From: Strigamia acuminata | Lineage: Eukaryota > Arthropoda > Chilopoda > Geophilomorpha > Linotaeniidae | Length of the DNA stretch: 60,000 nt | NCBI GenBank assembly: GCA_949358305.1 | Contig: OX442322.1 | Location: 6,822,001 to 6,882,000 of the forward strand | Direction of reading: 5' to 3' | Shown here: in pieces, positions 2,287 through 22,163 of the stretch | How positions within the stretch are numbered: the first letter of the stretch is position 1 | How the letters are laid out: the number at the start of each line of letters is the position of its first letter | Program-made: the position numbers and the translations under genes | The notes under the pieces: generated by a model | Told to the model about the DNA's origin: nothing | Databases searched by the model: none | The model's input: only the letters and a program-made list of their open reading frames with translations

Positions 2287-2287
2287 T

Positions 2288-3408: not shown

Positions 3409-3728
3409 TGTGATGATTACAAATCCGTATTTATCAATGTTCACAATAGATGGCGCTGTTTACCAAAACGCGCGTAATTCAAACTCGATAAAACTAAAAA
3501 GTGTGATAAATAATTATTTAGACACGGTAAATAAAATATAACTATTTTATTTGACATAAACTAAAGTATTATTTACTTGACAATGTTGATTCTATCGAAT
3601 CAATATCCACGTTACTTACTTGTCGAAGGGAACCAATCGGACCCTTCCGGACCCCAACTGGGCCCATCTGGACATAGTCATATATTAGGTCCGGACTAGT
3701 GACCCACGAATCCGCCGATTCGTACGCT

Positions 3729-3780
3729 GATTGGTTGTCGCCAATCTAGTAGTTCTACAGAACTATATAAGCTCCAGTTT
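3729..3780 (+). promoter_or_regulatory. GYP-1 LTR core promoter: inverted CCAAT pair plus TATA box
   Basis: GATTGG (3729-3734), a 6-nt spacer, and CCAATC (3741-3746) form a perfect inverted repeat about 28 nt before TATATAA (3774-3780). The same arrangement is in the 3' LTR (TATATAA at 16383-16389) and, with one CCAAT arm changed, in the solo LTR. Confidence 0.65.
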
Positions 3781-4337
3781 CCACCCACTCACCCCCGTGG
3801 CTTGATAACTGAACTTGTATATTGTCTGTAGTTGAATTGTTATCGTTTGATTTCATTATTCTCTATCGACACATCAGGCCACCTCAGCTCTCCACAGTTA
3901 GTATTCATTACTATTTTGTTATTGCTGTTGTAGGGCTATTTCGGGAAGGCTAACTCCGGTAATAGACATGCATCCGCATGAAATGGCCCCGTAACGTTAG
4001 CCAGCTGTTCTACGGGACAGTAGGACTTCGTACGGTGGCTTAATATAACGGTCGTATACAGTACGACCTTGCTAAATGAAAGTAGGTCCCTCAGCTAACT
4101 GGCCTCAGTCCGCTGCAGGATGGCTGTTGTAAATAGCCCTCGCAGGTTCCTGTCTTTCTGCGATCAGTCCTTCCGCACGTTAAAAGTCGGTAAAGGCCTA
4201 ATACACAGGTAACACGCCGGGTTGGTAGCCCGTGAGTAATATCTTCAAGATGTTGCGATAAATAACTACCTGGATAATGGTAATCCAACGGCAGTGGCCA
4301 AATAATATTTTACCCGGTGCTCGATCATTGGATCCCG

Positions 4338-4692
4338 CCATCGTAAGGCATGCTGGCGGAGTCAAATCCTCCCGCGATGGTTCTCTCGACCGTCGTGACG
4401 GTCCCCGCCCCATCGTACCCTCCGGGTTAGTAACCCGTGAACAGGAGTTGAACAACACTGTGTTAAACAAATTACTCGGGCATTGGTAATCCTGTATTGG
4501 CAATATCTTTTAAACCCGGTAAGTCCATAGAAATGTTTACCTGGTGGTTGGTACCACCGATAGCGACTTAAAGCGTACAATTAAATACTCGGCGCCTGAT
4601 CACGAGATCTTGTCGTCGTAAGGCATGCTGGCGGATGGAGTCTCAACAACTCCCGCGACGTTCTCTCAATTGTCGTGACGGTCCCCGCCCAA
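4338..4692 (+). repeat. Two degenerate ~75-bp repeat units inside the GYP-1 LTR
   Basis: Both units contain GTAAGGCATGCTGGCGGA, then a CTCCCGCGA block, TTCTCTC, and GTCGTGACGGTCCCCGCCC. They lie about 270 bp apart (about 4338-4411 and 4611-4692). GTCGTGAC forms a short inverted repeat. The pair is kept in the 3' LTR (about 16965-17042 and 17238-17319) and in the diverged solo LTR, which suggests a kept structural or regulatory role. Confidence 0.7.
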
Positions 4693-5157
4693 TCAATATT
4701 TATACAACAATTCATTTGTTGTATTCCACTAATCATTTTACTTTTATTCATTTGAAACAATGGAATATTCTGCCGAATATTCCTGTTTATGCGAAGGACT
4801 CCTCGCATATTTAGATAATCGATGCTGCGGACCAAATACGTCTCCGTAGCGATATTTGTGACGATGCCGCAAGTCAGCCGTATCCCTCTGGCTTCGCCCG
4901 GATCCTCAACCAGTTGATGCCGCCCGTTTACACGCGTCCAGAACCCATCTTTGTTATTGATTAATATTTAATAATAAATATGTTATATCACACTAAAACT
5001 GTAAGTTATTTTCTGCTTGATCGCATAGTCATGTTTGTAAGGGCTTCCGTAGCTTATCTCGGTTAGGTTGTTGCTAAACTTAGCAACGTCTTGTATAAAC
5101 CGAATTATCTATCCCAAAAGGACTAATAAATTAGCCCAAAAGTAGAATCGTCACAAG

Positions 5158-5175
5158 TGGAGGTTCTACCGAGAT
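5158..5175 (+). other. GYP-1 primer-binding site (tRNA-Gln)
   Basis: TGGAGGTTCTACCGAGAT starts three bases after the LTR end. It is complementary to a tRNA 3' end reading ATCTCGGTAGAACCT-CCA, which fits animal tRNA-Gln (I recall one mismatch to the vertebrate form). GYP-4 uses the same primer. Confidence 0.8.
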
Positions 5176-6262
5176 AGGCTGCCAAATTTTAAATAAAATT
5201 TGAAGTTTTGCATGTCTATGATGAATTCGAGTAGTGTAACGTTTATGGTGATTTTTGTGTGTAAAATAAATTTCGTTTGAGATTTATAAGTGTTTAATAT
5301 ATTTTATTTTTTTTGAAAAGGCAATAAGTGTAACTCACTTTGTTCTTTATTCTCCACTGTGGAAATTATACGTTTTAACAAAATAATAATTTCTACCGCG
5401 TGGTCAGGCCTAAAGGCCCAACCCCGAGAATGGGAGTCTTGCCCGAACTTGTTGAAGTTGGTTCCGCCCGGGTAACGTCATTTTGTCATCGACAATCGGA
5501 CAAAACCACGCGGTCGGGCCTAATTTTGAAAAGTTGACTTTTTAATGGAATTCTTAAAGAATTCTATCAATTTAACAGTTGTTTTAATTTTTAGAATATT
5601 CTTTCACATATATTTTGCTTGAGACCTCAAGTTAAACCTAAATTTATTTGCCTAAATAAATAGAAGGAAAATTGACATTTTTCGAAGGAATTAAAATTTA
5701 TATTTTATTTCAAAATGGTTTACCTTATTTTTAAAATGTAGATTACATTAGAATGTTGGTTAAAAAACGTGATTTCAAGGCGTTGGAATCAAATTTTACG
5801 AATGGAGTACCGTTCGAATTTTAGCAAAGAAAATTTCTCATTGTTGTGTTGCCTAGCAACCAGGTTGTGCAGAAAAGCCGTCGATTCAAAAGATTTGACG
5901 CGCTTTATTAAAAATGTGGGTTTTAATACTTTAAAATTCTCATGGAATGGTCATTTTTATTAAATAAATTTGATAATATTTTAGAGTACTTTGAAAATTA
6001 TCCATATTGTTTGGGACTACGTCATAACCCTGAAATCTGACCAGATTAAGGTTCCACGAACTTAGTGATTTCCACCAATCTCGGATGAGATTGGACTCTC
6101 GCGAGATTAGCGTTGATACTTGACCAATCAGAGAGGTGTCTTGAAGTATCCATACTTCCTTTCGAATAGTGTGACCACTGCTTCGTTTGCAACCCTCCTG
6201 AACGTTTGCAACTTCATCGTTATCTCTCAGACTTAGGAAATTTTCTTAGTTTAAGTTTAGTT
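5176..6262 (+). other. GYP-1 leader with nested inverted repeats
   Basis: About 1.1 kb before gag, without a convincing gene. CCGCGTGGT (5396-5404) pairs perfectly with ACCACGCGG (5505-5513), and TTTTGTC pairs with GACAAAA inside that span. This is a possible packaging or dimerisation structure. Confidence 0.55.
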
Positions 6263-8509
6263 ATGACTAATAACCAGCATCACATGAACACCCGTGGTAA
6301 GGAAAGAACTTGTTTGACCGGTGGAATGAATCTATCCGGGTTTATACCTGTTCCTAATGGAACTGAAGAAGTGGAAAACCACGCGGTCCATAATGGCGTT
6401 TCAAATGAAACAGCCGGACCATCTGGAGAGAATAGGGCTCCACGTGAACCTACTCCGCCTGGAGAAGAGGAATGCATTCCTGAAGGTTCTCATTTAGGCC
6501 GAGGCGGTCTATTATTTTGTCAGGATCACGGTTTGAATCCAAACCAATTTAGATCTTTGACCGAAGTGTTAGATTTTGTACACGCGCAACGTGCTACGTC
6601 GGAGCAACCTAATTCCCCAGCCAGCCAAAGATTAAATAATTTTAGTCCCACTCCTTCGACGCCTATTTCTAGATATAGAAATAAAAATGTACAACCTCCT
6701 CGTCAAGATCAGTCGAATTTGACACCAGGAGATTTTAATCGTGCTTTCCAACAACGATTACGAGCGAATAACTTCGCTCGCAACCAACAAAGAGGATTTA
6801 CAAATCCAGAGAACTTTGAGAATACGTTCAACAGAGCGAATTTGGGTCCGCCTAATATGGCCAACCCTAATCCAAGTTTTCTAAACGGATCAAATAGTTG
6901 TCCGAATCTCGCTGGAAATTTGAACCCAAATTCAGGTGTGACAAGAGGACCAAACCGCCGTTTTGACCCAAATTCTAGATTTGCAAACAATTCTAGTCCA
7001 GTACCTAACATGCAAAGGGGTCCCCCAGTTCCTCCAAACTCGAATAACCCAAATAATCCGAATGATTTAAATAATCCTTCTACTGGAACTCCAGGAAATT
7101 CAAATAACTATTTGAATCGAGGTACGCCAGGTAATTCGAACTATCGTCCGAATTTTGGTAATCAAGAAAGTTCGAACAATCGTCCGAATTTTGACAATCA
7201 GGGTAATTCTAATAATCATTCGAATTATGGGAACCGAGGCAATTCGAATAACCATTCGAACTTTGGTAACCACAGCAGGTCAAATCAAGGAGGGTCGAAT
7301 AATTTCAACCCTAATAGTGGTGGCTCAAGTCAAAATAACTCGAGTCAACCAAATAATGGCGGGTCGTCAAACGACAACTCGCGGCCCCCCAGTAGCTTTG
7401 GAATGACGGCTGATGACCTCGCGTCAATTGCCACGACCATGCACAAGTTGATGCAGGCAGGAAAAAGTTCCGCCACTGTCCCTCAAACTAACTGTTTGAA
7501 ACCACCAGATATCCCTGTATTCTCCGGAAAAGCAGAAGAAAGCGAACGCTTTCTCAATATTGTAAAAAATGTCGCTTTCCTGCGAAACATGTCACTCGAT
7601 GACATGCTTGTTAAAGGCGTGGCCGGTTATTTAACCGAGCAAGCGCATGGTTGGTTTCATGAAAGGAGAGAAGATTTCATATCTTGGGAAGTATTTGAAC
7701 AGGCGTTCAAAGAACGGTTTGTAGCCACTCGACAAGAGCGGACGAACCAACTAACTAAGTTGAAACAACTGGAAACAGAAAGTCTTTACGACTTTATGCA
7801 CAAATATTACCAGTTATGGATATTACAAGACAGTCTTGATGCAAAAGGGGCTGGTTGTCTTTTTATCGGGAGTGTAACTCCTGCTAATGATTTGCTTTTG
7901 CATACGCAAGGCATAGCGGATTTGCCTCTGACAGAGATTTATACCGTTATAACAAAAAATAAAGGCTTGTACAGTCGTACAGCTAATGGAGCAAGGGAAA
8001 ATATTTCCAATCCAGTTATTTTCCCACCTCGGAAAACTGACATTCGTCCTCAGCCAAAGACAAAAGTTAAATCTTTAACTTTGGATTCACAAGAACAACT
8101 TAATATTTGTGAAGAAGAGTTACCTGAGGAATGCGAGGCCGTTTATTTAATAAATGGAGTAGTGGATCAGACCAGACGTGGTCAATTAGTTTGTTACCAC
8201 TGTAAGAAACCGGGACACATGCGTCGAGAATGTCCAGATTTAAAACCACGTGCAAATTTCAACTCTGAAGAGTTGCAAAAACGAAGTACGCCGGATTCCC
8301 CGACTGTGGATCCTACTTCTAAACGTCCTAATAATAGGTGGATAACTCAAGAAGTGTTGGATGCAACACTAGATGCTAAACTTGATGCGAAACTTAATAC
8401 TTTTGAAAATAAGTTACAAACTTCGCTGACCAACTCGTTGGCAGAAATGGTCAAGACTTTGATCAAGCCAGAATCTGCTGATTCAAGTGCGACTAGTTCA
8501 AAAAACTAG
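6263..8509 (+). CDS. gag: GYP-1 Gag (zinc-knuckle nucleocapsid protein)
   Basis: The open frame extends up to 6206 but the first ATG is at 6263, giving about 748 residues to the TAG at 8507-8509. Order: an N-terminal block with GLLFCQDHGLNPNQF (shared with the GYP-4 mini-Gag), a long Asn/Ser/Gly/Pro-rich region, a helical capsid-like region (from about KPPDIPVFSGKAEESERFL to the VFEQAFKERFVATRQERTNQL block, as in retrotransposon Gag families), a CCHC knuckle CYHCKKPGHMRREC, and a C-terminal predicted coiled coil with VLDATLDAKLDAKL. It should assemble the particle and bind element RNA. The middle contains 36-bp tandem repeats. It ends on AAC-TAG within a -1 frameshift signal. Confidence 0.93.
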   Translation: MTNNQHHMNTRGKERTCLTGGMNLSGFIPVPNGTEEVENHAVHNGVSNETAGPSGENRAPREPTPPGEEECIPEGSHLGRGGLLFCQDHGLNPNQFRSLTEVLDFVHAQRATSEQPNSPASQRLNNFSPTPSTPISRYRNKNVQPPRQDQSNLTPGDFNRAFQQRLRANNFARNQQRGFTNPENFENTFNRANLGPPNMANPNPSFLNGSNSCPNLAGNLNPNSGVTRGPNRRFDPNSRFANNSSPVPNMQRGPPVPPNSNNPNNPNDLNNPSTGTPGNSNNYLNRGTPGNSNYRPNFGNQESSNNRPNFDNQGNSNNHSNYGNRGNSNNHSNFGNHSRSNQGGSNNFNPNSGGSSQNNSSQPNNGGSSNDNSRPPSSFGMTADDLASIATTMHKLMQAGKSSATVPQTNCLKPPDIPVFSGKAEESERFLNIVKNVAFLRNMSLDDMLVKGVAGYLTEQAHGWFHERREDFISWEVFEQAFKERFVATRQERTNQLTKLKQLETESLYDFMHKYYQLWILQDSLDAKGAGCLFIGSVTPANDLLLHTQGIADLPLTEIYTVITKNKGLYSRTANGARENISNPVIFPPRKTDIRPQPKTKVKSLTLDSQEQLNICEEELPEECEAVYLINGVVDQTRRGQLVCYHCKKPGHMRRECPDLKPRANFNSEELQKRSTPDSPTVDPTSKRPNNRWITQEVLDATLDAKLDAKLNTFENKLQTSLTNSLAEMVKTLIKPESADSSATSSKN
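7139..7282 (+). repeat. Four 36-bp tandem repeats in GYP-1 gag
   Basis: Units at 7139-7174, 7175-7210, 7211-7246 and 7247-7282 encode 12-residue repeats of the type N-x-x-(P/S)-N-(F/Y)-(G/D)-N-x-x-x-S. They form part of a low-complexity Asn-rich linker. The units are degenerate, so the array is not a fresh expansion. Confidence 0.8.
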
Positions 8510-11049
8510 ATCCGGGGGACGAAGGTTTATTCCATCCCCCAGAAGTGGCTAATGCTACGTCGGAATCTTTATTTATGGATGTAGACACAACTTGTCTTGA
8601 AATAGTCACTAGTCATAGTGGCGGAGTAGAGGAAAATCTGCAAGAAATGACAGAACAATTAAAAAATCTGACATTGTTTCCCCACAAGTGTTACACGAAG
8701 AAATTCTGTAGACTTCGCCGACTCAACAGAGTCATAGGCGGCAATAATTTGCACAATATTACTTTAGGTAATAATAAAGATGATCCTCGAATGAAGATCA
8801 CAATTGGTGGGCTCACCTATAACGCGCTCATGGATACAGGAGCATCTCAATGTTACATTGGGGAACAACTCTTGTCTGAAACTCAGGCTTTGCCAGAATT
8901 TTTGCAAGAGGCCCCCAGAAACATGTTGGTTAACGCTGTAGGCGTAGCACACAAGCCTGTCGGACAAATAACTTTGTGCGTGCAATGGGCTGATGAATTT
9001 ACACCAATGAATTTCATCGTTTTAGCAAAACGAGTTTGTGGCTTGATACTTGGTCACAATTTCATGCGCAGACAGAAAATTAGTCCGCATCCACATTTAC
9101 AAGAGTTCTCTTGTGCAGATAAACCTAATTGGTCCGCTCCTTATGAATCGGAAGAAGCCAATTTGGCCCTCGCCCCGTTGAATCGAATTACTTTCGATTA
9201 TTTAAGACTGTCGTCCACTCTCAACTCAATTGAGTTAACAGACACCCCTGTGTTAACTTGGGATGAAAAATTAGTTGAGGAGAGCGACTGCACTCCGGAA
9301 CAAAGACTAGCACTTCGCGAAGTGGCTAACTCGATACCGAATGTATTTCGTGATCAAGTTGGGTGCACTAACGTGACCCAACATCGTATTAAGTTCAAAG
9401 AAGGGCATTCATTGCCCAAAATGCAGTATAGAATGTATAACCCGGCCAAGAGAGCCATTATGACCAAACTAGCTGCAGAATTGGAACAGGATGGACTCAT
9501 TGAAAAGGCCAAAGGGCCCTTCATAAGTCATCCCGTCATTGTTGCGAAGCCTGACGGCTCGTATAGGATGTGCATCGACTATCGGTGGCTGAATGCCATC
9601 ACCGAAGTCGAAGTAATACAAATGCCAAGTATTGACCTTTTGTTGCATAATACTGGTCCGGCAAAGTATTTTACGTCTATTGACCTTGTTAAAGGTTACT
9701 ACCAAGTCGAAATGTGTGAGGAAGATCGCCCAAAAACGGCGTTTTATACGCCAAACGGCCCTTATCAATTTGTGCGAATGCCGTTCGGCCTTTGCAATGC
9801 GCCTTGTACTTTCCAGCGTCTGATGGAAGGCATTTTAGGCTCAGCTTTACAAGACTACGCGTTAGTTTATTTGGATGACGTAATTGTGTATTCAGATAAT
9901 TGGGATGATCATCTCAAACATGTCCGAGATGTTTTGGAAAGGCTTAACCAAGCCAACATGACAATAAATAAAGCAAAATCTCGTTTTGGGCGTACAGAAT
10001 TAAAATTCTTGGGCCACTGGATTAAACCCGAAGGTCTCTTCGGTGATCCCGATAAAATATCGGCGATCATGAAATTTCCCACCCCCACGTGTGCTAAAGA
10101 CATTCAGCGCTTTCACGGCATGACTAACTTCTTCAGGAAGTTTGTTCCAAATTACGGAACTATTGCCGCACCATACACACGTATGATGAATGAGAAAACT
10201 CCATTTGAATGGGGAGATGAGCAGACAGAAGCTTTTAATAAAATTAAAGAGCTACTGTGTGGTGACAATTGTCTCCATAAACCAGACATGACTTTGCCAT
10301 TTGTCGTCATGACTGACGCTTCTCATGAAGGCTTAGGAGCTGTCCTTTGCCAAGATGTCGATATATTCGATGAAAAGAAGCAGAAAAACATTTCTGTACC
10401 CAGACCTGTAGCTTATGCAAGCAGAGTTTTACGTGGAGCGGAGAAGCGTTATACAACGCCGGAACTCGAATGTCTCGCAGTCGTGTGGGCTATCGATCGA
10501 TTTAAACCATATCTCGAATATGCTACGTTCACTTTAGAATCAGATGCAGAAGCACTGAAATGGTTGATGCGAACGCCTGAACCATCTGGGAAATTTGGCC
10601 GATGGGCCTTAAGAATCCAATGTGGAAATTTTAAAATTGTTTTTCGAAAAGGTGCTGCTAATCAAGTTGCAGATGCACTCTCTAGAGCCCCACTAACAGA
10701 GGAAGACATTCCTCTTCGAGATCATGTGGAACCTGTCGAAATTAAACAATACTGGCCTGAGTGGGACGGAAATCCTTCTGTTTCATTAAATCGTGCCCCA
10801 GAAAAACGAGAATTTTTGGCTAGTGTGCGTTCCTATTTTTCAGAAAATTCTAAAGAATGTTCTGAAGAAAAGGAGGGGGAGGAAGTACAAGAAACCTTGT
10901 ACAGTGCGTTGACTGAAGTACTTAAAGAAGTCCCTCTTACAAGGAGAGAAATAATAGATGCTCAGTTACTAGATAATGAATGCAAACGCATTCGAGAATA
11001 TTTATTGAATGACAAGGTTGTTGGGATACCACAATCTGAAATAAAATAA
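8497..11049 (+). CDS. pol: GYP-1 Pol, protease-RT-RNase H part
   Basis: Reached by -1 frameshifting from gag; the first in-frame codon after a stop is at 8497, and the GTG at 8545 is not needed as a start. Aspartic protease carries ALMDTGASQCYIG. Reverse transcriptase carries SIDLVKGYYQVE, MPFGLCNAPCTFQRLM and the active site VYLDDVIVYS. RNase H carries MTDASHEGLGAVL, PELECLAVVWA, ESDAEALKWL and VADALSR. All catalytic residues are visible. An in-frame TAA at 11047-11049 cuts it from the integrase, which follows in the same frame. This looks like a single point mutation in an otherwise intact Pol. Confidence 0.93.
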   Translation, partial: FKKLDPGDEGLFHPPEVANATSESLFMDVDTTCLEIVTSHSGGVEENLQEMTEQLKNLTLFPHKCYTKKFCRLRRLNRVIGGNNLHNITLGNNKDDPRMKITIGGLTYNALMDTGASQCYIGEQLLSETQALPEFLQEAPRNMLVNAVGVAHKPVGQITLCVQWADEFTPMNFIVLAKRVCGLILGHNFMRRQKISPHPHLQEFSCADKPNWSAPYESEEANLALAPLNRITFDYLRLSSTLNSIELTDTPVLTWDEKLVEESDCTPEQRLALREVANSIPNVFRDQVGCTNVTQHRIKFKEGHSLPKMQYRMYNPAKRAIMTKLAAELEQDGLIEKAKGPFISHPVIVAKPDGSYRMCIDYRWLNAITEVEVIQMPSIDLLLHNTGPAKYFTSIDLVKGYYQVEMCEEDRPKTAFYTPNGPYQFVRMPFGLCNAPCTFQRLMEGILGSALQDYALVYLDDVIVYSDNWDDHLKHVRDVLERLNQANMTINKAKSRFGRTELKFLGHWIKPEGLFGDPDKISAIMKFPTPTCAKDIQRFHGMTNFFRKFVPNYGTIAAPYTRMMNEKTPFEWGDEQTEAFNKIKELLCGDNCLHKPDMTLPFVVMTDASHEGLGAVLCQDVDIFDEKKQKNISVPRPVAYASRVLRGAEKRYTTPELECLAVVWAIDRFKPYLEYATFTLESDAEALKWLMRTPEPSGKFGRWALRIQCGNFKIVFRKGAANQVADALSRAPLTEEDIPLRDHVEPVEIKQYWPEWDGNPSVSLNRAPEKREFLASVRSYFSENSKECSEEKEGEEVQETLYSALTEVLKEVPLTRREIIDAQLLDNECKRIREYLLNDKVVGIPQSEIK
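8500..8540 (+). promoter_or_regulatory. Programmed -1 ribosomal frameshift signal at the GYP-1 gag/pol junction
   Basis: The heptamer A AAA AAC (8500-8506) is in the gag frame as X XXY YYZ and is followed at once by the gag stop TAG. Seven nucleotides downstream, GGGGGA (8514-8519) can pair with TCCCCC (8535-8540) as a 6-bp stem with a 15-nt loop. The -1 frame is open from 8497 and runs into the protease/RT ORF. The heptamer, spacer and stem match the retroviral pattern, giving a Gag-Pol fusion. Confidence 0.85.
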
Positions 11050-12693
11050 TGGAAAAACAAAGTAAAAAACTATTGTTTAGACAGAAAAGAAAAGGATGGT
11101 GATCAAATGATCATCTATTTTAACCCTTCGTTCGAAGAGGAATTAAATGATTCGGGAAACGGCTTTAAAGCCGTTGTACCCAATTCACTCGTAAAACGAG
11201 TAATCTTCGCTTGTCATGGCCACCCCCTAAGCGGTCACGCTGGGATGAGTAAGACGTTGGAAAAAACACGTTTAATATATTTCTGGCCGGGTATGAGTAG
11301 AAGTGTCAGGAACTACGTCAAAAGCTGCACGCACTGTGCTCAGTACAAGCCTATTCAACAGAAAAGGCACGCAGCTCCTTACACGCCACACAACATGACC
11401 AATCCTTGGGAATGTATTAACATGGACTTGATGGGCCCAAAACCCGCGGGAAGGTCCCAAAACCAGTATATTGACAATTGTACCAAGTTCGTTGAAATTA
11501 AGGCTTTGACCAAAGCCACGAGCGCTAACTGCGTTCAAGAATTAAGATCTGTTACAAACAGATGGGGACACCCCAAAAAGATTGTGAGCGATAACGGAAA
11601 ACAATTTGTTTCCGATATTTACAATGAGTATTGCGAAATGTACAACATTCGCCCGTCCCATACAAGCACATATCATGCCCAGGCGAACCCGACAGAGCGA
11701 GCCAATAGAGATATAAAGACGATGCTGGCCTTGTACACAGATGTGCACACGCAATGGCCACGATATTTAGACGAATTCGCGTTCGCGATGAGAAATAATG
11801 TCTCAGCGGCAACGGGCTCAAGCCTGATGTTACTGAACACGGGACGAATCGTAACATTACCTTTCGACCGAAGGATTATTAAACATGCCAATCCATTTGA
11901 CAAAGAAAATCCAGAAAAATATGTCAGAGTACTATTAGATATATTACGCAGATCGCATCAAGAGATGCATCGCAGAATTCAATTGAATTTTGAACGACAT
12001 AGGAAAATACACGAACAAAAGTTCGTAATTACGGAGTTCGAAGTTGGAGATTTAGTTTGGAAACAGACTCACATTCTCTCGTGCGCAGATAAAAATATCT
12101 CCGCTGGATTTGCCGAGAAGAGAGATGGACCGTGGGAGATTACTAAAGTACTTCCAGGCGGAGCGTATAAATTACGCAAATTAGCTGATTGTTCGATTGA
12201 AAAATCAGTAAATATTAAAGCGTTGTATCCCTATACTCCGTCGTACCCGATTGAGACTTGGAAAATAGGACAAAAGTCCGCCTCTTACTCGCCTCAAGAA
12301 AATCCTAAATGGATGGACGAAAGTAATCAACTTCCGGATGCTGAAGAAATGGAATTAACTCCTGAAACTTCCTCAGAAATTCCAATGGAATTATCCGACT
12401 CAACTTCAGTGCAGATTAACAAATCTGCGCCCACAAAGTCTAAACATAGACATAGACAACGCTTAACTGCTATGGAAAAGAAAGCGGCGTTAAAAAGAGG
12501 CGAAGTTCCAAAGAAACCGCCTCGAAAACCCCGCAAACCCCAACCGATAGTTCCACGAACTAGCACTCGTCCACGACGAGAACGAAAACCAAATCCTAAA
12601 TATGCAGATGAAAATTTCGTGCGAAACATCACTGCAGTATTTAAAAAACCTTACCAACAACGAGGAAAAGCCTCAAAGTTCTGTTGGAATTGA
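11050..12693 (+). CDS. pol: GYP-1 Pol, integrase part (after an in-frame stop)
   Basis: Same frame as the upstream Pol, separated only by TAA 11047-11049; the first ATG after it is at 11107. The zinc-binding HHCC region is CHGHPLSGHAGMSKT then CTHCAQ. The catalytic core has D (CINMDLMGPKP), D (IVSDNGKQF) and E (NPTERANRDIK). The QNQYIDNCTKFVE stretch looks a few residues shorter than usual between the first beta strands, which may be a small deletion. The C-terminus is basic (KKPPRKPRKPQP..RPRRERKP), suited to DNA binding. It would join element cDNA to chromosomal DNA. Confidence 0.9.
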   Translation, partial: WKNKVKNYCLDRKEKDGDQMIIYFNPSFEEELNDSGNGFKAVVPNSLVKRVIFACHGHPLSGHAGMSKTLEKTRLIYFWPGMSRSVRNYVKSCTHCAQYKPIQQKRHAAPYTPHNMTNPWECINMDLMGPKPAGRSQNQYIDNCTKFVEIKALTKATSANCVQELRSVTNRWGHPKKIVSDNGKQFVSDIYNEYCEMYNIRPSHTSTYHAQANPTERANRDIKTMLALYTDVHTQWPRYLDEFAFAMRNNVSAATGSSLMLLNTGRIVTLPFDRRIIKHANPFDKENPEKYVRVLLDILRRSHQEMHRRIQLNFERHRKIHEQKFVITEFEVGDLVWKQTHILSCADKNISAGFAEKRDGPWEITKVLPGGAYKLRKLADCSIEKSVNIKALYPYTPSYPIETWKIGQKSASYSPQENPKWMDESNQLPDAEEMELTPETSSEIPMELSDSTSVQINKSAPTKSKHRHRQRLTAMEKKAALKRGEVPKKPPRKPRKPQPIVPRTSTRPRRERKPNPKYADENFVRNITAVFKKPYQQRGKASKFCWN

Positions 12694-13768
12694 TAAGTTT
12701 TATTTAAAACTTGGAGACAGTAATTATTTTACATGTCTAACAGGTGTAGTGATTGAAACTCTCAACACCGGGGGACACTTTGATATGAAGAGTATCGAAA
12801 TTTATATTAGAATATGAATTTGCTGCGATAAGTTAAAATATTCGATAGAATATTTTATTATTTATTATTATTTTATTATTTGGTCCTATTTGTATGTATT
12901 TTAATTAAAATACAGAGAATTACTTTGAAAAGTGATAATCTCGCCTCTTCACGAGGGTATGAGACTTACGAGGTGTGATTAAACCTCGAACCCGACAATT
13001 AATAGGGAATAAAATTCCCAGGGTTCATTGCACACAAACACTTCGTAACACACGTGGGTATAAGTGACTTCGTCCCTTTATTCCTCTTCACTTTTTCGAC
13101 TTCGGAAAAACTTCAGCGCTAATTTATTTAGCCGGTCCTCGCTTCAAACAAGGAAAGCTTCACTTCCGACAGTAAGTAGTTTTCACATATATTCTTTGAC
13201 CAAAGAATTAGAAAATTGTTCGCAACAATTGAAATATCGGAGTCCCGATAAAAAGTTCACGTGTATTATAAACGTGAATCGGCATTAAATCACTCTGGAA
13301 GTATAACTATTCAGTCGAATAGTTTGTGTTAAATTCCAATAATGAATTATTGAAATTTAAGTACGTAGGCACTAATTATTTAAATCAAGTCGCGGTCGAG
13401 GCTTGGATAAATTATTTAACGATGAATTTTTAATGTGAGATATTTATTAGACTAAGTGTTAATTAATTAATACGAAGTTTATTTTTGATATTCAAAGATG
13501 GAATTAAATAGTTTATAGAAACTACGGGGATTTTTTCTTTTGAAAAATCAACAAGTTGCGATTTTCAATGAAAATCGCTGTCAGGCGAGTCCATTTTCGT
13601 GTCATAAACACAAGGGGAATGTGACTCATTAGTGTCACGTGTTAGGGGTTATAAATAACTCAAGTTGTGTATTTTCGTTGCGAACAATACGTTTTAATTC
13701 TTTGGACTCAAGGAATGATTATTTAGAGTGGAATTATTTTTAATAAAATAATTTATTTGCGTCTGCAG
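12694..13768 (+). other. GYP-1 untranslated spacer between pol and ORF3
   Basis: AT-rich, about 1.1 kb, no convincing ORF. A PPT-like CACCGGGGGAC lies about 70 nt after the pol stop (about 12766-12776), resembling the true PPT next to the 3' LTR. The spacer ends TTTATTTGCGTCTGCAG, which looks like a splice acceptor directly before the ORF3 ATG. Confidence 0.55.
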
Positions 13769-15286
13769 ATGGGAAGTGGTAAACACCGTTCGAAACGGAG
13801 TCATCGACGACACCGTCATGAAAGCTCCAGCTCGTCCACCTCGTCTAGTGACGAGCAACGCCGTTCAGCGGAACGTGCTTACATGAGGGCCCAACCAATA
13901 CCGACGGCGCCCGCCTCGATGTACGCCCTGACGCCGCTGCAACTGGCAACGCTAAATTGGCTGAGCGTCCATCCGGACGGACTTCCGCTCGACTTAAATG
14001 CGATGATGCAGGCCCCATCCACTTCTGCGCAGCCAACTGTTTATGAGTCGGCGCAATTGGCCCCGTTGGCCCAGGTAGCATATCCGCCTGTAAACGTTAT
14101 CAACGTCCCGTTGGCCCCGCATTCGCCAGAATTTCGGCCGCCAACTGCAAGCGTGGCGCCTACCATCGCCAACACGTCGAATGCAGCTGCACCGACTGTG
14201 GCAGGACAATCAACGTCCGTTGCACATCTGCCCGCCGGTGCTGAATCTTCGGCATCAGAATACGGATGGAACGAGCCGCCACCGGGCGCCCTGCGTTTTT
14301 CGGAGCTTGTTTCTCGCAACCGCGAGTACCGAGCCGCCAACAAGGCGAGAAAGAAGGACGAGAAGGCCCGCCTGCGCAAGGAGCAGTGCGAACGAGACAT
14401 GGCAGCCGGAATACCTCACGATAACATCGTGACGGACCAGGCAACAGAGACGATCTGCCCATTTTGCGTCGGCTGTGGGTGGTGCTGCGGTGCATCCGCA
14501 GGTTCTTCTCTAATGCGTTGTCCAAACTGCCGAGGAAGGAAAACGCGACCGCGTTCGGAGCCGTGGCGCAAGGAAGTTCAGCCCCACGTGGTGAAAGGCA
14601 TTAAGCCGAACGAAAAGCGATGTTGGGCTCACTGCCCAAAGTGCCGACTTTTCTTGAATAGTCGCGGCAAAGCGGTTTACATCGACCCGCGCTTCCTCAC
14701 CTGGGCCCGCGCTGAAGCCAACGCCGGTGTAAGAGTCGAACTCCTTCGACAGTCGCCGCCGCCATCCGAGGACTCCGAAGTTTCTACTGAAACTGTCCAA
14801 GCCGTCGAGAGCGCCGGAAGCGAGGTGCAGGAAGAATTCGTTCGACCAAGAGCGATGTCGCGTGGACGAGGCTGCCTGACGCTCGACCGAGCGAGAGAAA
14901 TTGCCAAAGTTCAACGCACCAACATCTTGGCACGAGGGCGAGCTCGTAAGCTTCAACAGGCTGTTGAAACGTCGTCTAAACCCGTGGAGGATCCTCCAGC
15001 GGCCGTCACCGACGTGTCTAGCGCCCCTCTAGCGTCTAAGTCTGAGACTTCGGACGACGCACAGTTCGAGGACGCCGAGGAGTTGCTCTCCGTCGTCGAT
15101 TTCGTGGCGGAGTTGCTCGAGGATCTGCCGTTCCCACCTCCGAGCCCAGAGGAAATTGAAGCGTCGGAGGAAGCTGTATTTTCTGCCGTCTCGACAGAGG
15201 CAACTGAAGAATCGGATTTTCTGACTTCTGCTGAAGTCGAGAAAAAGGAAGAGGAAGATTCGACTAACGTCGAAAAGAAGGAGTAA
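13769..15286 (+). CDS. GYP-1 ORF3, cysteine-rich accessory protein of unknown function
   Basis: 505 residues from ATG 13769; the frame is open a little further up but a TTG start is unlikely. I do not recognise the family. Seen: an N-terminal Lys/Arg/His-rich stretch (KHRSKRSHRRHRH) followed by poly-Ser, which could bind RNA or direct nuclear entry; a Pro/Ala-rich segment; a charged region (KARKKDEKARLRKEQ); a Cys cluster with CPFC, CGWCC and CPNC, then CWAHCPKC, resembling zinc ribbons; an Arg-rich MSRGRGC stretch; and a long acidic tail. No signal peptide or membrane span is evident, so it does not look like a fusogenic envelope despite its env position. The likely splice acceptor at 13768 suggests a spliced subgenomic mRNA. 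Codon use and length argue that it is a real gene. Confidence 0.75.
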   Translation: MGSGKHRSKRSHRRHRHESSSSSTSSSDEQRRSAERAYMRAQPIPTAPASMYALTPLQLATLNWLSVHPDGLPLDLNAMMQAPSTSAQPTVYESAQLAPLAQVAYPPVNVINVPLAPHSPEFRPPTASVAPTIANTSNAAAPTVAGQSTSVAHLPAGAESSASEYGWNEPPPGALRFSELVSRNREYRAANKARKKDEKARLRKEQCERDMAAGIPHDNIVTDQATETICPFCVGCGWCCGASAGSSLMRCPNCRGRKTRPRSEPWRKEVQPHVVKGIKPNEKRCWAHCPKCRLFLNSRGKAVYIDPRFLTWARAEANAGVRVELLRQSPPPSEDSEVSTETVQAVESAGSEVQEEFVRPRAMSRGRGCLTLDRAREIAKVQRTNILARGRARKLQQAVETSSKPVEDPPAAVTDVSSAPLASKSETSDDAQFEDAEELLSVVDFVAELLEDLPFPPPSPEEIEASEEAVFSAVSTEATEESDFLTSAEVEKKEEEDSTNVEKKE

Positions 15287-16027
15287 AAAGGGACAAAATT
15301 AACATTCGTTTATTTTTCCGAGTGGAGATTTTTATGACTAAAAATGCTCCAAGTGTTTGTTGTGTTTTTTCGCCATTACGAAATATTCCCACGAGTATTG
15401 TGTTTGTTTCAAGATTTTGAACTAATCATTAAATACTCGAACGAGTATAGTGTAATTTTAAAATTGGATTCAATTTAATTTGCTTGTTTTCGAATTCAAT
15501 TTGAATGTTTATTTCAACTAATCATATTAATATATGTTTGTTTGATTTATTTTGCGAGTTTCATAATTATTTGTGGAAATTGTGTTTGTTTTGCTTTGTT
15601 CAAAGTGTTGAAGAATTTCAAGTTGAAATTCAATAATTTTTATGACAATCGTAATAAAAATTAGTAGTTTAGATTTTCGATAAATAAAATTCTGCATAAG
15701 TTTATCTTTTATTGATTATCTTGTTGATTAATAAGCTTTGAATAAGTTTATTTGACGGAGAAATAAAATTTCTATCGAAATAAGTTTTCTCGAACATGTA
15801 TCCATGTTCGGACGAGTTCATTTCCGTCGCTTAGCAACCGGGAGTTGCGTTGTACAGGGAAACCGATTAGTCTAATCGGGTGATGAAGTTTCTGAAAGAA
15901 ATAACATGATTAAGTTTAATAAAATACTTACCAAGTGGATTAATTCGATAGAATTAGGTGAACATTTCTTATACATTAAGAATGACAATTAAAAGTTGGT
16001 AAACTCTATGATTGTCACCGGGGGATG
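15287..16027 (+). other. GYP-1 3' untranslated region and polypurine tract
   Basis: About 730 bp of AT-rich sequence without a credible ORF. It ends TGTCACCGGGGGATG, the polypurine tract that would prime plus-strand DNA, directly before the 3' LTR at 16028. Confidence 0.8.
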
Positions 16028-17781
16028 TGTGATGATTACAAATCCGTATTTATCAATGTTCACAATAGATGGCGCTGTTTACCAAAACGCGCGTAATTCA
16101 AACTCAATAAAACTAAAAAGTGTGATAAATAATTATTTAGACACGGTAAATAAAATATAACTATTTTATTTGACATAAACTAAAGTATTATTTACTTGAC
16201 AATGTTGATTCTATCGAATCAATATCCACGTTACTTACTTGTCGAAGGGAACCAATCGGACCCTTCCGGACCCCAACTGGGCCCATCTGGACATAGTCAT
16301 ATATTAGGTCCGGACTAGTGACCCACGAATCCGCCGATTCGTACGCTGATTGGTTGTCGCCAATCTAGTAGTTCTACAGAACTATATAAGCTCCAGTTTC
16401 CACCCACTCACCCCCCTGGCTTGATAACTGAACTTGTATATTGTCTGTGGTTGAATTGTTATCGTTTGATTTCATTATTCTCTATCGACACATCAGGCCA
16501 CCTCAGCTCTCCACAGTTAGTATTCATTACTATTTTGTTATTGCTGTTGTAGGGCTATTTCGGGAAGGCTAACTCCGGTAATAGACATGCATCCGCATGA
16601 AATGGCCCCGTAACGTTAGCCAGCTGTTCTACGGGACAGTAGGACTTCGTACGGTGGCTTAATATAACGGTCGTATACAGTACGACCTTGCTAAATGAAA
16701 GTAGGTCCCTCAGCTAACTGGCCTCAGTCCGCTGCAGGATGGCTGTTGTAAATAGCCCTCGCAGGTTCCTGTCTTTCTGCGATCGGTCCTTCCGCACGTT
16801 AAAAGTCGGTAAAGGCCTAATACACAGGTAACACGCCGGGTTGGTAGCCCGTGAGTAATATCTTCAAGATGTTGCGATAAATAACTACCTGGATAATGGT
16901 AATCCAACGGCAGTGGCCAAATAATATTTTACCCGGTGCTCGATCATTGGATCCCGCCATCGTAAGGCATGCTGGCGGATGGAGGAGTCAAATCCTCCCG
17001 CGATGGTTCTCTCGACCGTCGTGACGGTCCCCGCCCCATCGTACCCTCCGGGTTAGTAACCCGTGAACAGGAGTTGAACAACACTGTGTTAAACAAATTA
17101 CTCGGGCATTGGTAATCCTGTATTGGCAATATCTTTTAAACCCGGTAAGTCCATAGAAATGTTTACCTGGTGGTTGGTACCACCGATAGCGACTTAAAGC
17201 GTACAATTAAATACTCGGCGCCTGATCACGAGATCTTGTCGTCGTAAGGCATGCTGGCGGATGGAGTCTCAACAACTCCCGCGACGTTCTCTCAATTGTC
17301 GTGACGGTCCCCGCCCAATCAATATTTATACAACAATTCATTTGTTGTATTCCACTAATCATTTTACTTTTATTCATTTGAAACAATGGAATATTCTGCC
17401 GAATATTCCTGTTTATGCGAAGGACTCCTCGCATATTTAGATAATCGATGCTGCGGACCAAATACGTCTCCGTAGCGATATTTGTGACGATGCCGCAAGT
17501 CAGCCGTATCCCTCTGGCTTCGCCCGGATCCTCAACCAGTTGATGCCGCCCGTTTACACGCGTCCAGAACCCATCTTTGTTATTGATTAATATTTAATAA
17601 TAAATATGTTATATCACACTAAAACTGTAAGTTATTTTCTGCTTGATCGCATAGTCATGTTTGTAAGGGCTTCCGTAGCTTATCTCGGTTAGGTTGTTGC
17701 TAAACTTAGCAACGTCTTGTATAAACCGAATTATCTATCCCAAAAGGACTAATAAATTAGCCCAAAAGTAGAATCGTCACA
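16028..17781 (+). repeat. GYP-1 3' LTR
   Basis: 1754 bp, same ends as the 5' LTR. Differences I see: a few substitutions and an extra GATGGAG block near 16979, which accounts for the 7-bp length difference. TSD ATGT follows at 17782-17785. Confidence 0.95.
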
Positions 17782-17785
17782 ATGT

Positions 17786-18581
17786 TAGCCCTGGAAAGCG
17801 CTCGGTTCTGGAAACGTGCAACACGCCGAAGGAGGCGTGGGACACACTCGCCAAAATCTACGCGCCCAGTTCCAGAGCCCGCCGAGCAGCCATGAGATGG
17901 GAATTTCTCGGCCTTCAATTGCAACCCGGCGAGGATATGCCGGATTTCATTGCCCGAGTGGATGGCTATGTTCGCCAGCTGAAGGCGGTGAACGAGAAGG
18001 TAGAGGACGATCATCATGCCTACCAATATTTGAAGTGTTTACCGTCCGAATTCGCGCAGGCGACGTTCGCCATATACCACTGGCCCGACGATAAGTTTAC
18101 TCCGACACTGGTCGCCGAACAATTAGTTTCCAAACACATGCGGCTGAAATCCATCGGGCTACTCGGGACGAGCCAATCCACGGCTCATGCATCGATGAAA
18201 GGGCAATTCCGACCTCGAAATAAATCCGGACCTCGTGACATTTCAACCGTCAAATGCTTCAATTGTGACCAATTCGGACATTATGCAAACAAATGTCCAC
18301 GCCCGCCCCGTCAACAACAGGGGCAGGCAGCGGCTTCAGTGCAGCAACGGTCATCTCGAAAAGCCGCCGGCGCAATAAGAACGCCGCGGCGAAGGCAAAC
18401 AACACGCGTCCCCGTGAATCTTCGCATCCGCACCGAGAGGGGACATTCTTCGTCAATGCGCCGCAGGTCATTCAACGTCCAGTTGCCCACTTTATGCAAT
18501 CCAATGAGTGGATACTGGATTGCGGCGCCACAGATCACGTATCTCACGTACGTGCGGGATTCACTGAATTTATGGATGTAA
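17786..18581 (+). pseudogene. gag: COP-3 gag, C-terminal piece with zinc knuckle
   Basis: Continues the gag reading frame after GYP-1. It contains the TPKEAWDTLAKIYAPSSRARRA block and a UBN2-type Gag core (FIARVDGYVRQLK, YQYLKCLPSEF), then a CCHC knuckle CFNCDQFGHYANKC encoded near 18254-18297. After the knuckle the frame drifts into sequence unlike copia Gag. The protease is in another frame starting near 18293, so a frameshift in roughly 18300-18400 separates them, either mutational or a lost programmed shift. Confidence 0.85.
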
Positions 18582-19346
18582 TTCCCTTCGACATTGAGTT
18601 GGGACAGGGTAAGTCCCAAGTAACGGGCAAAGGAACAGTTCGTCTTCTCCTAGCAATCGACAAGACCCGATGCACCGTCAATTTGACGAATGTCCTCTAC
18701 GCGCCGAACTTCGAGGCAAACTTGATTTCGGTTTCGAAGATAGATAAGGCCCGACATCACATCCATGTCTTCAACAGTGAGATCCATGTTTACCAATTGG
18801 ACATTCGCAGCCCTCTCATCCGTGCAAAGGAGAGAGGTGGTCTTTACTATGTGGACGGTTTATGTTCGAATCCGACATTTGCGACGACTGTCTCTCCTAC
18901 GACACAACCGACGATTCCCGCGTCGCCAGCGCAAATGTACGTGACAACCGAAGAAGATTTCCCGAACATTCCAAAGCATAGACAGGGAAAAGGGTCAAAA
19001 CAACGAGAAATTTCGGATTTCCGGATTGAGATGCCAGCTATTGAACCTGTAAAGCAGATTTCCGTACAACAAGCTCCTCAAACCAATCCGATCCCTCCTC
19101 CCATTCCCACACAAATCCACAATGACCTGACCATTCCTCCTTCCTACGCGAGTGCCCTACAGTCAATTCCAACGACAATTCCTACCGCGATTCACAACGC
19201 AAATTCCTTCCCTCCCCTCGGCAATCCGTCTCAACCGAAAAAGAAGGTCATTGCCAAACCAGCTTCCGTCAAGGACGCCACCGGCTTATGGCACAGCCGA
19301 CTTGGCCACCTTCATACAAATGGAATGAAGTTGTTGGCCGCAAACG
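18293..19346 (+). pseudogene. pol: COP-3 pol remnant: protease and integrase N-terminus
   Basis: The protease core is WILDCGATDHVSH; copia proteases usually read D-S-G-A, so the Ser is replaced by Cys here. A long Pro-rich linker follows, then the GAG-pre-integrase motif LWHSRLGHLHTNGMKLLAAN. At about 19346 the codons run straight into the last 60 bp of the LTR, so integrase core, RT and RNase H are gone. COP-6 carries the same block with its continuation (57231-58326), which shows what is missing. Confidence 0.85.
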
Positions 19347-19405
19347 CGGCTCCATTCACGCTTCCAATCGGTTCACATCGATATTTTGCGCATTCTCTGT
19401 CTACA
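19346..19405 (+). repeat. COP-3 3' LTR remnant (last ~60 bp)
   Basis: GCGGCTCCATTCACG to TCTGTCTACA, matching the end of the 5' LTR with two transitions, followed by TSD CTCAC (19406-19410). Confidence 0.88.
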
Positions 19406-19410
19406 CTCAC

Positions 19411-19696
19411 ATTGTCATCCGCTCTAAAGAGCACTTATTGTTTGCTTTGTTTTGGATCAAGTTTATTGATTAACTTGGCCTGCTCTTAATGTAAAGAATG
19501 GATCATTGTGTAAAGACAATGATTCGTTCTGTCTTTTGTTTTGTACGAGATCGAGGACAATTAGCCTCGAACTCAAGTGATTTTTACTACACCTTTTGTA
19601 ATAAAGAAAATGGCGGACGCGTGTCCAATTTATCCGCCAAGCCGAAAACGATGTTTCGAGTTATTTAGACAGCGCACAGGCCATCACAACTCTTCA
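19411..19696 (+). repeat. COP-2 5' LTR, right piece
   Basis: Continues the LTR left at 1800 and matches 21878-22163 of the 3' LTR, ending CTCTTCA. It contains AAAATGGCGG and the hairpin TCGAGG/CCTCGA seen also in the COP-4 LTR. Confidence 0.92.
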
Positions 19697-19699
19697 AAG

Positions 19700-19759
19700 T
19701 GGTAGCAGAGGGTGGTTTCGATCCACCGGCCTCTGGGTTATGGGCCCAGCACGCTTCCG
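19700..19759 (-). other. COP-2 primer-binding site extended into a 60-nt antisense tRNA-iMet segment
   Basis: Starts TGG three bases after the LTR end. For 60 nt it reads as the reverse complement of initiator tRNA-Met: acceptor 3' strand with CCA, T arm (with the initiator-type AUCGAAA loop and a fully paired GGTGG/CCACC stem), variable region, anticodon arm with CAT, and part of the D arm. From memory of animal tRNA-iMet I count about three differences, all compatible with a different species. It stops in the D arm and is fused to mid-pol. A genuine tRNA gene is unlikely: the 5' acceptor half is missing and the non-genomic CCA is present. Confidence 0.88.
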
Positions 19760-21676
19760 GGGGATGATGGGAATTACTTCAACGTCTATCCTGACAATGA
19801 TGGAAAACCTGAAATTCCTCTCGGGATTCAAACACGACGTGGATCACGATCAAAGAAAAAGAAAGGGGACGTGATGTCACGCCCGGAACTACTGCCGTTA
19901 AATATGGCGGAATGGGAACGACGCGCATCCGTCCGCAAAGACGGAGCGACGGCGGGACAAATAGACGTTATTTACATCACGCCCTTAAAAGACAAAATAA
20001 GAAGTCGAGTTGATATTGCACGTTGGTGCGACGAGGAAGGGTACGCATATGATGCATCCCTATTTGACTTTAAGACATTAGAGGGGGACGGTGAGCCATT
20101 AGAGTTTGCAGGTTTCTGCGCCGTCGAGCCAGAAACCTACGAAGAAGCCATGTACCACATCAAGCGCCCTGATTGGATTAAAGCTATGAGGGAAGAAATT
20201 GATGTATTTGATGAAAGAACGGTTTACAAGGAAGTTGACAAAACAACTTTAGATGAGGGTACGACTCTCTTGGGATCGAAATGGATATATAAAATGAAGC
20301 GCGACCACACAGGTGTTATCCAACGCTACCGAGCCCGACTCGTCGCACAGGGCTTTAAGCAAAAGCCCGGAGTTGACTTTACGGAGGTGTTCTCCCCCGT
20401 CGTCAACTTCGTGCTAGTAATAGTGTTCTTTTGCACTTTGGTAATACTCAAGGGATGGCGGGATTTACACCTGGATATCAAGGCCGCGTACCTTTACGGG
20501 GACCTTGATACGGTACAGTACATGGAGATCCCCAAAGGATATCGTACCGCCCATAATAAGCATAAATGCTGGATGCTTTTAAAATCACTTTATGGATTAC
20601 ACCAGTCCGGTCGTATGTGGTACCAGGTCCTCCACATACGACTACTTGAATTAGGCTTTCAACCGTTGTTGGGTTTAAACTGTGTCTATGCCCTAGACAA
20701 CGACGCGATAGTCATCTTCTACGTGGACGATATCGTGCTATTCTCGAAGGATGACTATGTGGAACAATGCGTTTTGAAGTGGTTACGGGAATCGTTTGAA
20801 GTAGTGAGTCTGGGACCCGTAACTTTACTTTTAGGAATCGAGTTTGATAGGTCCGGGGGCATGATTAAAATCCACCAACGAAAATATATTGAAAAGCTTT
20901 GTAAAGCGTACGGGATTGACTTGTGCCATCGAGTGAAAGTTCCAGTAACCACGGGAACCATGATTCAAAGTGTGAGAACCGGGGAAAAAGTCGATACTTC
21001 ATTCCCGTACAGATCTTTGGTCGGAAGTCTATTGTTCATTGCCAGCCGAACCAGGCCCGACATACTATTTTCCGTAATAGTATTATCCCAATATAACGAG
21101 ACGCACTCGACGCGCCACGTTAATATGTTACTGCAAGTCTTGCGATATTTGGCGGCTACGTCGAATTATTCTATAAATTTGTCGAATTGCAAGAACGAAG
21201 ATTTAACAGTTTACACCGACGCGTCTTTTGCCCTCGACCAGGACAAAAGGCGAAGCTTTGGGGGACATATTGTCTACATGGGCGGCATTCCCATCTCGTG
21301 GAATTGCCACAAACAATCGATGACCTCCCTGTCGATCATGGACAGCGAATTTCTCGCCGTGGTCGATGGGGTGAAAGAAATCATTTGGTTAGACCGCCTT
21401 TACGACGCAAGCATTATGTTTTGCGTCGAGCGAAGTATCCCGTGTATCTATGCGGACAGCCAACCGGCTATCCAATGCTGCAAAAATAGAATAGAGAACA
21501 GAGCGAATAAACATATAGATGTGAAGCTGCATTTCGTTAGGGATTGGTACGAAAAAGGAACGTTCTCGATCAAGCATATTTCTGGCGAATTGAATGTCGC
21601 CGATATCCTAACGAAATGGTTAGCAAAGTCCCGGTTGAACGCGCTGTGCGAATACATTTTTGTGATAGACAAATAG
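19760..21676 (+). CDS. pol: COP-2 Pol remnant: integrase-RT linker, reverse transcriptase, RNase H
   Basis: The open frame begins inside the tRNA segment (a GTG at 19712), so its first ~16 codons are antisense tRNA. Authentic pol starts near 19760. It has the linker (RGSRSKKKKGD), RT with FSPVVNFV, HLDIKAAYLYG, LYGLHQSGRMW and YVDDIVLF, and RNase H with VYTDASFALD, IYADSQPAIQ, NKHIDVKLHFVR and NVADILTK. The RNase H block usually reading STxEAEF is SIMDSEF, a conservative Glu to Asp change at a likely metal ligand. The frame is otherwise unbroken. No start codon for independent translation is obvious. Confidence 0.88.
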   Translation, partial: GDDGNYFNVYPDNDGKPEIPLGIQTRRGSRSKKKKGDVMSRPELLPLNMAEWERRASVRKDGATAGQIDVIYITPLKDKIRSRVDIARWCDEEGYAYDASLFDFKTLEGDGEPLEFAGFCAVEPETYEEAMYHIKRPDWIKAMREEIDVFDERTVYKEVDKTTLDEGTTLLGSKWIYKMKRDHTGVIQRYRARLVAQGFKQKPGVDFTEVFSPVVNFVLVIVFFCTLVILKGWRDLHLDIKAAYLYGDLDTVQYMEIPKGYRTAHNKHKCWMLLKSLYGLHQSGRMWYQVLHIRLLELGFQPLLGLNCVYALDNDAIVIFYVDDIVLFSKDDYVEQCVLKWLRESFEVVSLGPVTLLLGIEFDRSGGMIKIHQRKYIEKLCKAYGIDLCHRVKVPVTTGTMIQSVRTGEKVDTSFPYRSLVGSLLFIASRTRPDILFSVIVLSQYNETHSTRHVNMLLQVLRYLAATSNYSINLSNCKNEDLTVYTDASFALDQDKRRSFGGHIVYMGGIPISWNCHKQSMTSLSIMDSEFLAVVDGVKEIIWLDRLYDASIMFCVERSIPCIYADSQPAIQCCKNRIENRANKHIDVKLHFVRDWYEKGTFSIKHISGELNVADILTKWLAKSRLNALCEYIFVIDK

Positions 21677-21693
21677 CTAAACAAAGGGAGATT

Positions 21694-22163
21694 TGTTGGA
21701 TTGATGTTTTGCTGTTTGTCCCCGTGCGCGCGTGTGAAGTTAAATGCACCTTTACGGCTTAGTGCATTTGATGTGTTATTGCTTCTAGAACTGTTCATGT
21801 GATCGGTCAATCCTGGTTTTTATTCAATGCGTGTTACGGTACCGCGACCGATCATTATTTGCGATAACACATCTCACATTGTCATCCGCTCTAAAGAGCA
21901 CTTATTGTTTGCTTTGTTTTGGATCAAGTTTATTGATTAACTTGGCCTGCTCTTAATGTAAAGAATGGATCATTGTGTAAAGACAATGATTCGTTCTGTC
22001 TTTTGTTTTGTACGAGATCGAGGACAATTAGCCTCGAACTCAAGTGATTTTTACTACACCTTTTGTAATAAAGAAAATGGCGGACGCGTGTCCGATTTAT
22101 TCGCCAAGCCGAAAACAATGTTTCGAGTTATTTAGACAGCGCACAGGCCATCACAACTCTTCA
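21694..22163 (+). repeat. COP-2 3' LTR
   Basis: 470 bp, TGTTGGATTG to CTCTTCA, preceded by the PPT AAACAAAGGGAGATT. AAAATGGCGG at 22074-22083. Hairpin TCGAGG (22018-22023) / CCTCGA (22032-22037). Followed by TSD TATAC. Confidence 0.95.

Follow-up and report, generated by a model that had tools for sequence, protein, structure and literature searches.

The 5′ end of a COP-2 element of Strigamia acuminata runs, behind its long terminal repeat (LTR), into 59 nt of antisense initiator tRNA (tRNA-iMet) and from there directly into the middle of pol. This arrangement is very probably best explained by read-through of the primer tRNA during plus-strand strong-stop synthesis, with synthesis then resuming in pol. 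Arrest of the plus strand at the methylated A58 of the primer (m1A58) belongs to the textbook account of how retroelements replicate, and has been studied mostly in HIV-1. The element lies in a stretch of 60,000 nucleotides, here called the window, and over-extension products also occur in independent elements of the same genome, both with and without a deletion.

Structure of the window element

The sequence-only reading had noticed that antisense tRNA-iMet continues beyond the primer-binding site (PBS), and this held, although at 59 rather than 60 nt and after a spacer of AAG (19697-19699) between the LTR end and the tRNA. Aligned with the tRNA-iMet genes of the species, the tract is the exact reverse complement of tRNA-iMet plus CCA, ends at G18 in the D loop and shows no mismatch to gene variant 2 (100% over 56 nt at L037 and L038). 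It is contiguous with the LTR and PBS and passes position 58, where it carries the expected T, so that the window alone gives no sign of A58 methylation. ARAGORN, run with the bacterial code, called no tRNA gene in the window. At COP-2 5′ LTR loci, similarity to the window ends at 19711-19713, at the PBS, in all 13 relatives fetched, and no other copy with the joint was seen among them. The seven that were printed have a 14-nt PBS, TGGTAGCAGAGG[A/G]T, followed by AAAAACG..., a leader unlike that of the window. The A or G in this PBS mirrors the two gene variants of tRNA-iMet, which is what rewriting of the PBS by the primer would give.

In all 39 non-self rows (40 of 70 candidates scored), and in 29 of 29 fetched pol relatives after realignment, homology to pol on the other side of the joint starts exactly at 19759. 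Counted by coordinates against the C8 copy, 4,070 nt have been lost between PBS and pol. The joint is precise, the LTR and PBS are fully kept, and the microhomology that had been proposed for inspection at this point was not found: the next bases of the tRNA copy would be ACTG, and the parental pol has CGAA just ahead of the joint, which leaves zero bases in common.

Domain scans and the gap of about 4.07 kb agree with the earlier claim that the tRNA is joined to mid-pol and that gag and integrase are gone. The genome holds many COP-2 relatives; Retrotran_gag_2 lies close to the 5′ end of such elements (L002, L003), and in L073 the order is gag-pre-integrase, rve, SH3, a methyl-CpG-binding domain (MBD) and RVT_2, the first three of which lie upstream of the joint. 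The open reading frame of the window element contains the MBD and RVT_2 only and gave no match to gag or rve, leaving incomplete the set of gag, protease and integrase that an autonomous COP-2 copy would have. The protease, also said to be missing, was probably lost as well, to judge from the size of the gap; no Pfam protease was matched in any sequence scanned. TG...CA LTRs, a 5-nt target site duplication (TSD), RVT_2, integrase upstream of reverse transcriptase (RT) in the relatives and a PBS complementary to the 3′ end of tRNA-iMet are all features of Ty1/copia, the last being common among copia elements, and the element in the window counts as a non-autonomous derivative of copia. The MBD of the COP-2 polyprotein (PF01429), which sits between integrase and RT (amino acids 550-605 in L073), is perhaps a chromatin-targeting module; titles in the literature searched indicated no copia element with an MBD.

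The LTR is 470 nt long, and the perfect outer TSD bears out the earlier statement that the product was competent to insert. Position 19406 was considered as the LTR start and rejected, because the 5′ LTR is split in two pieces around a later insertion with a TSD of its own, CTCAC. This insertion is a copia element with an iMet PBS at 2288, a nested element at about 3405-17782 and a truncated 3′ end. Besides the PBS at 2288 (+), the window has further iMet PBS at 28890 (+) and 45650 (-), and the latter belongs to a leader group marked by GCTATCC behind the PBS, which was the most frequent group among the listed two-mismatch sites of the survey described below. The surviving frame is open from 19706 to 21673, following a TAG stop at 19703-19705, and has its first ATG at 19874. 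Its first 17-18 codons are antisense tRNA, as had been noted, but only when the frame is read from stop to stop, since all of these codons lie upstream of the first ATG.

Table 1. Features of the COP-2 element in the window (coordinates within the 60,000-nt stretch)
Feature	Position	Strand	Basis or remark
TSD TATAC, left	1612..1616		Matches right copy
5′ LTR, first 184 nt	1617..1800	+	98% to 21694-21877
Later 17.6-kb insertion in 5′ LTR	1801..19405	+	5-nt overlap CTCAC = TSD
5′ LTR, remainder	19406..19696	+	99% to 3′ LTR; begins with the duplicated 5-nt CTCAC
Family-standard 14-nt PBS (TGGTAGCAGAGGGT)	19700..19713	+	COP-2 relatives
59-nt antisense tRNA-iMet, CCA to G18, variant 2	19700..19758	+	No mismatch
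Joint tRNA G18 / pol	19758..19759	+	No microhomology
Pol remnant	19759..21676	+	MBD about 19907-20077, RVT_2 about 20255-20947, stop 21674-21676
Presumed polypurine tract ACAAAGGGAGATT	21681..21693	+	Position and composition
3′ LTR, 470 nt, TGTTGG...TCTTCA	21694..22163	+	6/470 differences from 5′ LTR
TSD TATAC, right	22164..22168		Matches left copy

Antisense tRNA tracts elsewhere in the genome

A search of the genome (237.5 Mb, 157 contigs) with the pattern TGGTAGCAGAGGRT returned 1,361 sites, compared to one for the reversed control. Extending the pattern by seven bases past position 59, to 25 nt, left 15 exact sites and 12 with one mismatch, one of which is a tRNA gene; 7 of these 12 mismatches fall at position 58. 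With up to two mismatches there were 139 sites, of which 100 were listed, and of the 73 two-mismatch sites among those listed, four were fetched besides two tRNA genes. After the examined sequences had been merged by their flanks, this survey comprised at least 21 events, and for 8 of 21 a second copy of the LTR, or relatives, served to check the LTR (the window, L032, L039, L040, L041/L095, L044, L045 and L057). Some twenty similar tracts look like fossils of an enzyme passing its usual stop.

Three loci join the tRNA copy to different parts of an element. In L044 (C6:15609.7k), the clearest case, the tRNA was copied to position 13 and is followed by a second PBS and a normal leader, which amounts to a 61-nt insert compared to relatives, with a 2-nt overlap (TG); its 28 listed relatives are 96-100% identical and have a single PBS (40 of 193 candidates scored). 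The combination of LTR, tRNA copy and deletion seen in the window recurs in L057 and L039. In L057 (C12:6980.8k) the LTR is followed by a tRNA copy to G12 and then by gag; about 755 nt are missing, and the joint has one additional A. In L039 (C13:7819.5k) the copy reaches C11, about 159 nt of leader are lost and the overlap is of 3 nt (GCG). A further candidate, outside the LTR-checked set, is a 44-nt copy in L059, joined to the gag ATG at a place where relatives are only 70-82% identical. PBS length varies within the L044 family (12 nt in L103, 14 nt in L128, 18 nt in L126), as if the tRNA-copied end had been pasted onto the leader in different registers, and in L127 a 16-nt PBS is followed by unrelated sequence.

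In L040 and L032 the tRNA copy follows an LTR that pol precedes, i.e. a 3′ LTR, as expected for the right end of a cDNA with its primer still attached. In L040 and in L032-L035 the copy runs into a second LTR, with 25 nt between them in L032 and a 2-nt overlap in L040. The four structures of L032-L035 (C6:15.38-15.49 Mb) are near-identical, each consisting of LTR, 66 nt of tRNA, 25 nt and LTR, and the PBS of the second LTR is again joined to mid-protein sequence. Insertion of element B of L040 into an older tRNA tract was rejected, as behind its far LTR there are neither the matching 5 nt nor any further tRNA. The idea that C9:1391847 holds a complete copy of LTR-A, serving that element as 5′ LTR, was likewise rejected, since the copy there is 5′-truncated.

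Other arrangements were also seen. In L041 and L095 the end of an LTR together with antisense tRNA sits in inverted orientation within a copia gag region, the site differing between the two; the LTR family is that of an apparent solo LTR inside L067, and no 5′ PBS of the L041 element was found in the 1 kb examined. The tRNA copy in L093 lacks the anticodon arm, as if RT had jumped across the hairpin. Tandem iMet PBS arrays are present in L114, L115, L116 and L092, with units of 30, 24, 17 and 62 nt, respectively, and the array of L115 mixes both tRNA variants, as if different tRNA molecules had served as templates for its units.

Among the merged tracts, ten are 58 nt or longer; their end points are 58, 59, 63, 63, 64, 65, 66, 66, 66 and 66 nt, and none of the ten passes G10. 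With CCA, tRNA-iMet is 75 nt long, so that a 66-nt tract takes in G10 as its final base and leaves G9 uncopied. Human initiator tRNA is reported to carry m1G9 (PMC7293042), and by likeness to it the end points at G10 may reflect a stop before the same modification. The tract overlaps its acceptor by 3 nt in L039 and L041 and by 2 nt in L040, L044 and L045, and in these five the tRNA copy possibly ended 2-3 nt earlier; unqualified 66-nt ends are those of L032 and L047 only. G9 does not account for the stop at G18 in the window or for the shorter tracts.

Position 58 was changed in 5 of 21 events, as compared to 5 of 954 other copied positions (Fisher p 7e-7). The corresponding figures were 5 of 21 against 3 of 500 within the 25-nt search pattern (p 3e-6), 3 against 3 of 645 in a subset of 11 events (p 7e-5) and 2 of 8 against 3 of 504 in the eight LTR-checked events (p 0.002). 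Misincorporation by RT opposite m1A has been documented (PMC4787781). Related leaders have G (L111, L107) or A (L106) in the register of position 58, and L126 (C64), one of the 28 relatives of L044, has an 18-nt PBS followed by C, the same base as in L044. The C at position 58 of L044 was therefore rejected as a base beyond the reach of descent. Together these bases mean that descent can explain part or all of the changes at position 58, none of which lies outside its reach; given the L126 copy the signature is not a clean one, and the excess is no more than suggestive of m1A58.

Origin of the window element

Under the read-through account, COP-2 plus-strand strong-stop DNA would have passed A58 of the attached tRNA-iMet primer, copied 59 nt of it and halted in the D loop. 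With a 3′ end too long to be extended in register on the minus-strand PBS, the strand would have resumed synthesis on minus-strand DNA within pol, skipping the gap; the product, keeping both LTRs, would then have integrated and yielded the TSD. The template was presumably mature, modified tRNA, capture and deletion may have been a single event, and integrase would have been supplied by another copy. A one-step origin of the deletion is the parsimonious one. Since the antisense tRNA stands in the coding strand directly after U5, plus-sense DNA copying the tRNA is the only polarity that fits; a minus strand jumping onto the tRNA would have left sense tRNA in the coding strand, which is contradicted by what is observed. 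The earlier proposal of strong-stop synthesis beyond A58 is supported by this polarity, by the complement of CCA, by the relatives and by comparable joints in other copia families of the genome.

The complement of CCA also bears on the source of the tract. It is extremely improbable that the tract is an ordinary leader or was brought to the joint, as a tRNA gene or pseudogene, by DNA-level recombination, although the 14-nt PBS is common to tRNA genes and tRNA-iMet genes do exist in the genome. TGG is contiguous with the tract and is absent from all 15 gene-like tRNA-iMet loci, which shows that the tract is not a copy of a tRNA gene; those loci, moreover, reach the 5′ end of the tRNA, whereas the ten long retro tracts all end at G10 or short of it. 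The pseudogene was rejected on this ground, the tract lying inside one element with a perfect TSD, and the normal leader because COP-2 relatives diverge after the 14-nt PBS, with no such extension in 13 of 13 fetched and no relative examined having these nucleotides as a leader before gag.

Two other routes keep the tRNA as template and differ in how pol was reached. In one, a COP-2 copy would first have taken up a longer stretch of tRNA with no accompanying loss; a template switch, or a deletion at the DNA level, would later have removed the 5′ part of the tRNA, the leader, gag, protease and integrase. L044 is such a capture without deletion, and the end of the window tract at G18 differs from the G10 stop of the longest tracts and lies outside the favored zone of G10-C13. 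Nevertheless, this route appears improbable: the 33 matches of a 69-nt search included no COP-2 copy that has both tRNA and leader, and of these matches the window alone has an adjoining COP-2 LTR in the sequence examined (three were examined only as short pieces, L092 and L093), and in L057 and L039 the tract ends near the stop zone with the deletion beginning right there, which favors one step in those two. In the other route, a read-through fragment consisting of the LTR and the tRNA copy would have been ligated to a cDNA truncated in pol and then integrated. The lack of microhomology at 19758/19759 leaves room for such end joining, and L040 and L032 resemble cDNA ends joined to a second LTR, with their 2-nt overlap and 25-nt filler. 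It is nonetheless rather unlikely, given a precise joint without loss from the LTR or PBS and the overlaps of 2-3 nt in L039 and L044, which fit strand transfer. End joining would alter the last step and leaves the read-through itself intact.

Known systems and possible tRNA traces in leaders

Read-through itself is already known in HIV-1, and the genome-wide series of tracts is the new part. Extension of the HIV-1 plus-strand primer beyond A58 has been seen in assays and in TRMT6-mutant cells, where, as proposed for the window, strong-stop DNA continues along the tRNA through A58 if methylation is absent or bypassed (PMC13191261). Those products come from assays or mutant cells, while the tracts described here are integrated, reach up to 66 nt, belong to copia elements with a tRNA-iMet primer and in some cases adjoin deletions. 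Integrated tRNA-iMet read-through tracts in copia were not described in the literature searched, which lacks most subscription papers. The tRNA copies reported at nef deletion joints, at 63-65 nt, are close in length to the tracts described here. They are of tRNA-Asp and tRNA-Glu and replace a hairpin inserted in nef, whereas here the primer tRNA is continuous with its own PBS; L041 and L095, inverted into gag, are somewhat closer to the nef case than the window is. PMC12220202 describes a cloned MMLV circle with a tRNA between its LTRs (Colicelli and Goff 1986) and a deleted HIV-1 provirus with tRNA-Gly beside it; both resemble L032 and L040 in placing reverse-transcribed tRNA at a retroviral LTR end. 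They differ in involving tRNA-Gly and in being known from a cloned circle and from clones of cell lines, not from the germline. In HITME recombination the minus strand jumps to the 3′ end of a tRNA, so that the coding strand would be expected to hold sense tRNA; unlike this, the window tract is antisense in the coding strand, and the orientation is reversed in L041 and L095.

Ty1 and copia belong to one superfamily. Like the window element, Ty1 uses a tRNA-iMet primer and has complementarity past the PBS, where Box 0, Box 1 and Box 2.1 are complementary to tRNA-iMet (PMC5454406). The Ty1 boxes are 6-7 nt long and part of a normal leader, while the window has one continuous 59-nt copy. The 66-nt tRNA copies of L045 and L047 may be fresh additions to the leaders of one clade, and candidate decayed traces of the form CCTCTG...GCACGCTTCCACT...CTGCGC were found in L106, L107, L108, L111 and L112. 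When 16 leaders were aligned to the tRNA and compared to letter shuffles, with the clade delimited by eye, L111 gave p 0.001, the other clade members (L106, L107, L108 and L112) 0.037-0.28, L114 0.005 at an inverted PBS, and the remaining ten leaders 0.24-0.9. These alignments weakly suggest tRNA traces in the clade leaders, and on the same slight evidence the L106-L112 leaders may be an analog of the Ty1 boxes. More tentatively, and rather doubtfully as it stands, read-through could be a recurrent heritable input, in which strong-stop DNA ending at m1G9 re-enters the leader, the leaders of a clade with dozens of copies are built from or renewed by antisense tRNA-iMet, and tRNA-binding boxes like those of Ty1 possibly originate.

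The genome records failure of the arrest at m1A58 in the form of the tRNA copy, its length, the base opposite position 58 and the next site of the strand. For the over-extended strand these next sites are pol, gag, the leader, its own PBS or another LTR, and a mechanism is thereby offered for internally deleted elements. The modification pattern of a past primer tRNA may be readable from DNA, and the origin of tRNA-binding leaders by primer capture becomes testable.
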